The notes under the pieces: generated by a model | What the model saw: the letters and a program-made list of their open reading frames with translations, nothing else | Told to the model about the DNA's origin: nothing | Database searches by the model: none | Translations under genes and position numbers: made by a program | Part shown: positions 37,501-39,620 of the stretch, piece by piece | How the letters are laid out: the number at the start of each line of letters is the position of its first letter | Numbering within the stretch: the stretch's first letter is position 1 | Assembly (NCBI RefSeq): GCF_042453785.1 | Contig: NC_091673.1 | Span: 193,501-257,500, forward strand | Reading direction: 5' to 3' | Length of the DNA stretch: 64,000 nucleotides | DNA from: Malus domestica | Taxonomy: Eukaryota; Streptophyta; Magnoliopsida; Rosales; Rosaceae

Positions 37501-38570
37501 CAAACCTTAACATATGAAAATCTCACTCTAAATTTAAAGAAATGTAAACATTAAACAATTCAACAGTTGTGATCAGAATAGGTAAAGAAAAGCAACAAAG
37601 AGAGTCAGCAACGAGTGAAAACTGCTAACGAACTTCGTTCAACCGAGTTGAAAAAGTGAGATGGACAATAAATATATGACAAGCATACATCAGATGTAAT
37701 ACATGTGGGACTTATCCCAAGCTACCAACTTAAGCAACAATACAACATACCTGTAAAAGTGCAGCAATAGTACCAAAAGAATTCCACAATAAAGGAGCCA
37801 AATCTTGAAATAATTCTCTCTTCTAAAAGTATGAACAGAAAGAAACAAAAGTACCTGGATGAGTGCAGCAATAGTACCAAAAGAATTCCACACGAAAGGA
37901 GCCAAATCTTGAAATAATTCCTTGTTCTAAAAAATGAAACCAAAGGCACACAGATTTTATAGGGCAGCATATCAATGTTGTAATATAAACTGCACAACCA
38001 CCTAAAGGAAAGTCACGGGCACAAATATTCAACTATAAAATCTGCTGTAAAAACCTACGCAAGCTTCCCCATGATCATAAACATATAACATGTAAAGCAT
38101 ATAGCATATGTATCAATCAAGATGCTCCGAGTCGTTTATGGGTCCTATTTAATAAAAAAAAGGGTAAACTTTTGAATGCCCACTTATAATGATGCAACTG
38201 TCAAGCTTCCGAATCCAGTTTCTCGCTACAGGAAACAAATTCACTTTTCTTCCTCTTGTTAGTTATAAAAATGAGAAGAAAACAACGAAATTACATAAAT
38301 AACAGTCAGTTACATCCAAAATTACAAGCCTCAGACTCAATGCTTCATTCTTAATATAGGAAGTGACCAATCAAAATTTGCAAAAGTTACCTTTGAAAGT
38401 TCAAGAAGTGCGTTTTCTCGAAGATCAGGATTACTCAGGTCAAGCACCAAGTGCTCTGCGGATGCCATTTTACGATCTTTGTTTGCTTGAGCTCCAGCGA
38501 CACTTGGTGCTGAAACGCTTGGACCTCCGAATTGAACATTTAATGAAAGCGACTGGGGCCGGTTTGCCAT
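34535..38570 (-). CDS. CCR4-NOT subunit 9 (CNOT9 / RCD1 homolog), 319 aa
   Basis: CNOT9 is an armadillo-repeat scaffold of the CCR4-NOT deadenylase complex, which shortens mRNA tails. Coding exons: 38391-38570, exon 2 in two versions (37855-37926 or 37751-37822), 37342-37431, 36867-36909, 35843-35949, 35502-35597, 35127-35317, 34928-34997 and 34535-34645. With one exon 2 version the length is 960 nt, 319 residues. The start is [10 protein letters not shown]. Conserved blocks include [68 protein letters not shown] and [16 protein letters not shown]; the end is [10 protein letters not shown]. All splice phases agree. The two exon 2 versions lie only 32 nt apart. A 5' leader intron up to about 39590 is likely. 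Confidence 0.95.
34718..34815. repeat. 49-bp tandem duplication in the last CNOT9 intron
   Basis: Two adjacent copies starting CTAGTTTGAAACCATAAATT and containing GGCTAGTAGGCGGCG (or GGCTAGCAGGCGGCG) lie between the last two coding exons. They differ at three or so positions. No function is visible. Confidence 0.85.
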
Positions 38571-39620
38571 TAATTGCAACAAACAAACTTCTCACTACTC
38601 AGGTATGAGACAGATTTTACTATCAAGTAGGGGTAGCCAGACAGCACCTTGACGTACTTAATTCAACTGATTAATCAAACGAGAGAGAGTAAGTATGGAA
38701 GTAAAAGGCCATAAACAGAAGCCATTAGCAAGAGGGAGAGTACGAGAATTTTATATGGTTACCAAATATTTAAATAACTTTACTTATAAAGTGCCCATTA
38801 CCAAAACAACCACTGTGTATAAATTGCTATTTTAAGTGTATGGACTGTCAGAAATGAAAGTTCCAAAATAGCAATGTTTGGCAGTCCGAAAAACAAGACC
38901 TACTGTGAATTGGGTAACTGATGCAAAATCTTTTCTCTTTTGGTAAATCTTTTATATACAAAGAAGAATTTCCTTCTTGATATTTCGACCTTAAGAAGAC
39001 AAAGAACGGAACATTACTGCAAACGAACAAAAAGAAAAACGTATGCGTATTCCTACAAAAATTATGAAATTTCTCTCACAGGCAGACAGAAACACGCACA
39101 GGGAGAAAAAGGTTGCAGAATTATTTCAGATAGATGTTTAAGCAATTGAATATCAAGTTATCAACCAAACCCAATTCAAGGTAGACTGGAATTGTTTAAC
39201 ATCATCCTGGGTTTGTAAATCATCCCCTAATCGCTCAGGAACAGAAAGGAGGAGGGGAAAAAAGAGCATGCATCAGGAACACAAATCAAATTGCTGCCAC
39301 AATTGCATGAAATGAAGAGAAATTTAAGCCACCCAATTCACATATACAGCAGAATCACCAAGTTTATAAAAGCAATTAAGCATCACTGATTTAAACTAAA
39401 CATGAACAGATTCTTACGCTTAAAATAATGATACAACAAAACAGATGAAATCCATCTCATCAACCTTTTCAGACAACTTAATACGTAGATTCATTGTCGA
39501 TATCAAAACATGAATTTAATAATTAAAGATAAAATTAAAAGATGAAGGGAGGAGGAGGAGATGATTGGGTGGTCGGTGCCTCACCTAAAGAAGAAGCCTT
39601 TGGATGACAATGGAGACGTT
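38571..39620 (-). other. CNOT9 5' leader with probable intron
   Basis: No coding frame with family likeness lies here. A good donor on the minus strand (CTTTAG|GTGAGG at about 39588) suggests a leader intron ending shortly above the start codon at 38570. The promoter then lies above about 39650. This is inferred from splice-like sites. Confidence 0.4.

Follow-up and report, generated by a model that had tools for sequence, protein, structure and literature searches.

The NOT9 gene and its duplicated exon 2

The window analyzed here is a 64,000-nt stretch of the apple genome, taken from the contig that we refer to as C13. It carries, on the minus strand, a gene for NOT9/CNOT9, a core protein of mRNA decay, in which coding exon 2 occurs twice in tandem, as exons 2a and 2b. 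Its features, numbered by window position, are as follows.

38570-34535, minus strand: NOT9/CNOT9 gene
38570-38391, minus strand: coding exon 1, from the ATG to AAG/gtaac; the spliced protein matches Pfam Rcd1
37926-37855, minus strand: exon 2a, 72 nt, phase 0, inside the longest identical run between the C13 and C16 genes
37859-37863, minus strand: CTCAT in exon 2a, putative branch site, at the same position in C16
37854-37823, minus strand: gap from the 2a donor to the 2b acceptor, 32 nt
37822-37751, minus strand: exon 2b, 72 nt, phase 0, found in 4/4 intact paralogues
37431-37342, minus strand: coding exon 3, predicted to be joined to 2a or 2b
36909-36867, minus strand: coding exon 4
35949-35843, minus strand: coding exon 5
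35597-35502, minus strand: coding exon 6
35317-35127, minus strand: coding exon 7
34997-34928, minus strand: coding exon 8
34645-34535, minus strand: coding exon 9

An earlier note on this DNA had described two 72-nt copies of exon 2 with AG and GT borders and a shared phase, flanked by exon borders at 38391 (exon 1) and 37431 (exon 3), and all of this was confirmed in the sequence. Exon 2a is bordered by ttttttag/AAC and CAG/gtactt, and exon 2b by acttttag/AAG and CAG/gtatgt. The note had counted about 8 differing bases in 72, and the number is exactly 8: the copies share 64/72 bases and 19/24 residues, and the five residues that differ are 61, 62, 71, 72 and 83 (apple numbering). The identification of the gene as CNOT9/RCD1 likewise held, as both isoforms match Pfam Rcd1 (PF04078) over its full length (1-260/260), with 414.3 bits for the 2a form and 421.1 bits for the 2b form. 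Solved CNOT9 and CAF40 chains match the first 128 residues of the 2b form, with E values down to 8.8e-38. An assembly artefact or chance as the source of the exon pair was rejected, since the pair recurs on contig C16 (96% identity over query positions 1-199/201).

Two further observations concern the gene model. Window positions 39650-39581 match the 5’ end of a NOT9 retrocopy and so represent an exon of the 5’ UTR, joined by splicing to about position 38667. Intron 6 (35501-35318) has an unusual donor, ACA/gttgagtgt, identical in all four intact paralogues, and differs between C13 and C16 at 8/182 positions, the lowest proportion among the introns compared.

Predicted constraints on joint splicing

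NOT9 carrying either 2a alone or 2b alone is an intact protein of 319 residues. Joining both copies keeps the frame and adds 24 residues, as had been claimed, and skipping both keeps the frame and removes 24 residues. Retention of the 32-nt gap, by contrast with these in-frame outcomes, shifts the frame and leads to a stop.

The published criteria for mutually exclusive exons are similar length, matching splice sites with a conserved frame, and sequence similarity (PMC3228551). Both NOT9 copies measure 72 nt, AG/GT borders and phase 0 are found in C13 as well as in C16, and 64/72 bases agree; judged from its DNA, the pair qualifies as a mutually exclusive exon candidate. A predicted bar to joint inclusion lies in the sequence between the copies: the gap, whose length the earlier note had given exactly, is 32 nt, below the published plant intron minimum of 70-73 nt (Goodall and Filipowicz, quoted in PMC1626468). 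Because the gap falls below this minimum, 2a and 2b would exclude each other sterically.

Our model suggests that exon 1 is spliced to either 2a or 2b, and that the chosen copy is then spliced to exon 3. Joint inclusion would be barred, because a 32-nt stretch would be too short for excision as a plant intron. The branch site of 2b would probably lie inside 2a, at CTCAT, the A of which is 37 nt upstream of the 2b acceptor in both C13 and C16. CTCAT is the sole YTNAY match 10-110 nt upstream of this acceptor, and the other matches, 9 or 7 nt away, are too close. Because of this probable location within 2a, the spliceosome could not engage the donor of 2a together with the acceptor of 2b. An mRNA that retained the gap would be frameshifted and presumably removed by nonsense-mediated decay. 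The two remaining mRNAs would encode NOT9 proteins that differ at five residues in and beside the NOT1-binding helix, to which phytochrome A also binds in Arabidopsis NOT9B. As for the balance between them, all four 2a and 2b acceptors in C13 and C16 are TAG, compared with 3/30 of the other acceptors, a descriptive count over four related genes. Because the 2b acceptors are of this rarer type, one exon may dominate.

We consider it probable that exon 2 is a tandemly duplicated, sterically enforced mutually exclusive pair giving two NOT9 forms. The earlier note had proposed mutually exclusive exons acting as a splicing switch. The first part is supported by length, phase, borders, homology, the gap, retention in the homoeologue with 2a unchanged and the presence of just one exon 2 in a retrocopy; the switch itself, and the present use of both exons, are what we infer from these features.

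Paralogues, a decayed copy and a retrocopy

Paralogues were sought in the 651-Mb genome, comprising 19 contigs, and four intact genes were found, on C13, C16, C3 and C11. The C13 and C16 genes both have 2a and 2b with frame and splice sites kept, and the C3 and C11 genes have a single exon 2 of the 2b type. Ks over exons 3-9 is 0.127 for C13/C16, 0.158 for C3/C11 and 0.88-1.17 between the pairs. Judging by these values, each pair stems from the recent whole-genome duplication, and the two pairs separated much earlier. The C13-C16 and C3-C11 pairing fits the apple karyotype. C9 and C17 each carry a more distant NOT9-like gene, and no second exon 2 was found upstream in the C9 gene (best local score 16). 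Scans of viral contigs and of genome contigs for stray plant DNA found no relative.

The comparison of C13 with C16 revealed how the two exon copies have fared since the gene duplication. Exon 2a has 0/72 differences, and 2b has 2/72, neither of them silent (K61T and L71V in C16). As the earlier note had it, 2b agrees with the conserved form, but it is 2a that is unchanged between these two genes and 2b that has two amino-acid changes. Differences amount to 5/32 in the gap, 39/457 in the intron preceding 2a, 281/2629 in the other introns and 33/888 in the other exons. The identity of 2a is significant against the introns (binomial 2.9e-4, Fisher 5.9e-4) and against the gap (p 0.002), and 2b also differs from the introns (p 0.03). 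At the rate of the other exons (33/888), zero changes in 72 positions have a probability of 0.065, so that 2a is not exceptional for an ordinary exon. Because it shows 0/72 differences against 281/2629 in introns and 5/32 in the gap, we read 2a as having been under coding constraint since the C13/C16 duplication, like a selected exon and not like a dead copy. The retention of both copies suggests that they are kept so that two forms of the partner-binding part of NOT9 can arise.

The identity of 2a might instead reflect recent gene conversion between the homoeologues and not selection. Both genes lie near contig starts (C13 at about 0.23 Mb, C16 at about 0.21 Mb), where homoeologues can exchange, and the longest identical run of the C13/C16 gene alignment, 105 nt (37953-37849), takes in the acceptor region, 2a and the start of its donor, overshooting the exon by 27 nt upstream and 6 nt downstream. 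We regard conversion as improbable, as the exon is flanked by sequence with the usual divergence (gap, 5/32; preceding intron, 39/457) and the converted tract would need to coincide with the exon.

A second alternative is that only one exon is used, either 2a (in C13 and C16) or 2b, and that the other lingers as a silent duplicate. One copy suffices, given that the C3 and C11 genes live with 2b alone, and the two amino-acid changes with no silent change in C16 2b could be relaxation. This alternative seems to us unlikely: 2a and 2b are both more conserved than introns (p 6e-4 for 0/72 and p 0.03 for 2/72), the frame and splice sites of both are kept in both homoeologues, and the retrocopy described below has a C16-type 2b start spliced to exon 1.

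The C3/C11 pair tells us what becomes of an unselected copy. The C3 gene contains a remnant of a second exon 2 (TTTTCGTATCGAATCCTTTTGGTACTATATATGTACATATACACATAG), and the C11 gene a similar stretch; in each gene the alignable part ends about 62 nt upstream of exon 2. The relics have kept 32/45 (C3) and 30/45 (C11) core bases, and their donor is gone; it is lost identically in both, CACATA standing for CAGGTA, and the loss therefore predates the C3/C11 split. Their presence indicates that an extra copy without selection does decay. Chance similarity was rejected: with 2a as the query, 0/2000 dinucleotide shuffles of the intron reached the score in either gene, and with the gene’s own 2b as the query, 8/2000 (C3) and 1/2000 (C11) did so. 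The shuffle test is somewhat lenient, since in comparisons of other exons with their flanking introns 5/50 non-relic comparisons had at most 1/100 shuffles reaching the score, more than expected; the highest non-relic score there was 29. When 2a was compared with the full set of 34 introns and gaps from the four genes, the two relics scored 39 and 38 and everything else at most 24.

At core sites where 2a and the gene’s own 2b differ, the C3 relic has the 2a base at five, the 2b base at one and another base at one; for the C11 relic the counts are three, two and three. Set against the 2b of C13, the ratio of 2a to 2b bases is 3:2 for C3 and 1:3 for C11. The diagnostic bases thus lean to 2a for the C3 relic and are ambiguous for C11. 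The simplest account of these sequences would place the exon duplication before the separation of the two gene pairs, followed by loss of the second copy from the C3/C11 pair, although the relic may also stem from an independent tandem duplication in that lineage.

A processed NOT9 retrocopy on C14 (C14:31556001-31561000, at about 2250-2870) offers a view of a spliced transcript. It contains stops, lacks the 5’ UTR intron and introns 1-5, and is closest to the C16 gene: at covered sites where C13 and C16 differ, it has the C16 base at 17/21 and the C13 base at 4/21. There is one 72-nt exon 2, with exon 1 directly before it and exon 3 after it, and therefore no joint inclusion in that transcript. 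This exon is chimeric. Its start (ACGAGAG..GTATTG), joined to exon 1, is the C16 form of 2b, and its end (CATCCAG), joined to exon 3, has three bases diagnostic of 2a; in BLAST, retrocopy bases 429-494 fall on 2b and bases 437-503 on 2a. One exon 2 per transcript is thus seen in one processed retrocopy, itself a chimera. The C16-type 2b start joined to exon 1 shows that 2b was being used once the C16-specific changes had arisen.

A reverse-transcriptase template switch would fit the chimera: copying begins at the 3’ end, here on a 2a mRNA, and the enzyme would have moved to a 2b mRNA within about 29 identical bases. An identical exon would also result from gene conversion in the parental allele, an equally possible account.

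Other features of NOT9-derived copies were also recorded. In the retrocopy, exon 4 is followed by base 44 of exon 5, with 43 nt skipped and the junction after an AG (ATCAAG/CAAGG), perhaps because the parent mRNA was spliced to a cryptic acceptor within exon 5. The retrocopy runs into intron 6 and then into unrelated sequence. Three related repeats carry a captured NOT9 piece of the C3/C11 type, best matched by C11 at 168/179 bases (C3:36.12 Mb), 165/179 bases (C13:23.21 Mb) and 147/163 bases (C2:27.95 Mb). The first two pass from exon 1 into the start of 2b with no intron, and the piece in the third ends at exon 1.

The putative NOT1 and phytochrome A surface

We placed functional positions of Arabidopsis NOT9B on the apple protein by their spacing from a conserved tryptophan, which was checked on the human sequence. 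In this placement, H70, V72 and A77 presumably correspond to the exon 2 residues N74, F76 and A81, and V85 to the exon 3 residue I89. The mutant H70A V72A A77Y V85Y of Arabidopsis NOT9B binds neither NOT1 nor phyA, and the two partners compete for the same NOT9B site (PMC8009681). NOT1 binding has been shown for both NOT9A and NOT9B, and NOT9A, which differs in the PNB region, binds NOT1 and not phyA (PMC8009681). By spacing, exon 2 would encode three of the four NOT9B positions mutated to abolish this binding. No mutations at the NOT1 interface of human CNOT9 were found in a search of open text.

Variable residues 71 and 72 stand directly before W73-N74, and residue 83 follows A81. If the stretch is fully helical, residues 71 and 74 would share a face, with 71 preceding by one turn (a hand estimate at 100 degrees per residue). 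A swap between 2a and 2b therefore appears suitably placed to tune NOT1 or phyA binding. None of the five variable residues is itself a mutated PNB position and the changes are mostly conservative; because of this, the functional difference between the forms may be small.

At the extreme, 2a and 2b might be interchangeable, chosen at random and functionally equal, and the pair would persist because the loss of either competitor costs little. The spared PNB positions, the conservative changes and Rcd1 scores only 7 bits apart are in line with this. We consider such interchangeability a rather doubtful but serious alternative, as neither homoeologue has altered the 2a residues F71, V72 and I83 since the two diverged (Ks about 0.13), and 2a has never been homogenised to 2b.

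With functionally distinct forms, the exon pair could be a splicing-controlled partner switch: 2a and 2b would tune one NOT9 surface for NOT1 as against phytochrome A or another competitor, and exon choice would set the share of NOT9 in the deadenylase complex. We put this forward as a speculative hypothesis with a low chance of being correct. If true, one apple gene does what Arabidopsis splits between NOT9A and NOT9B, and the chimeric retrocopy would be a template switch between co-existing isoform mRNAs, a fossil that both were made.

Mutually exclusive exons in tandem are frequent in animals, and few have been documented in plants. For Arabidopsis, a 2014 study reported that none were described in the sources it named (PMC3923563). 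Its Kassiopeia predictions for Arabidopsis thaliana, which use the same criteria as applied here and are predictions only, number 166; less 26 initial and 41 3’-terminal exons, 99 internal or 3’-unspecified candidates remain, given there without gene names (PMC3923563). The nearest plant case that we found is Arabidopsis FLM/MAF1, likewise a plant gene in which a mutually exclusive internal exon pair swaps an interaction region, and its paralogues MAF2 and MAF3 have intronic sequence that resembles the alternative exon and is not usable as such (PMC3266260). Unlike the NOT9 pair, FLM/MAF1 encodes a MADS transcription factor, and its isoforms were shown by RT-PCR and translatome reads (PMC3266260); the apple pair belongs to a CCR4-NOT subunit, has exons of equal length and a 32-nt gap, and is known here from DNA.

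The tandem homologous exons also resemble the sterically exclusive exons of animals. In human clusters, a donor-to-branch-point distance below 50 nt was counted as potential steric interference, which applied to 57 clusters (9%) (PMC5740500). The NOT9 pair differs from these in lying in a plant gene and in having a whole intervening stretch of only 32 nt. Arabidopsis NOT9A and NOT9B, too, are two NOT9 forms that differ near the NOT1/phyA-binding (PNB) site, but they are two genes (PMC8009681), whereas in the apple gene the exon encoding most of the corresponding site comes in two versions. For mutually exclusive exons in plant NOT9/CNOT9, no report was found by title or start of abstract, in a search largely of literature outside subscription.

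The NOT9 pair thus adds to a known class of mutually exclusive exons, and it is the gene and the place that are unusual: the pair sits in a CCR4-NOT subunit that is otherwise highly conserved, and within it in the exon for most of the site at which NOT1 and phytochrome A compete in Arabidopsis. The pair makes it simple to test, isoform by isoform, whether the deadenylase complex can be retuned by splicing, and the loss of the second copy in one paralogue pair provides a natural comparison.
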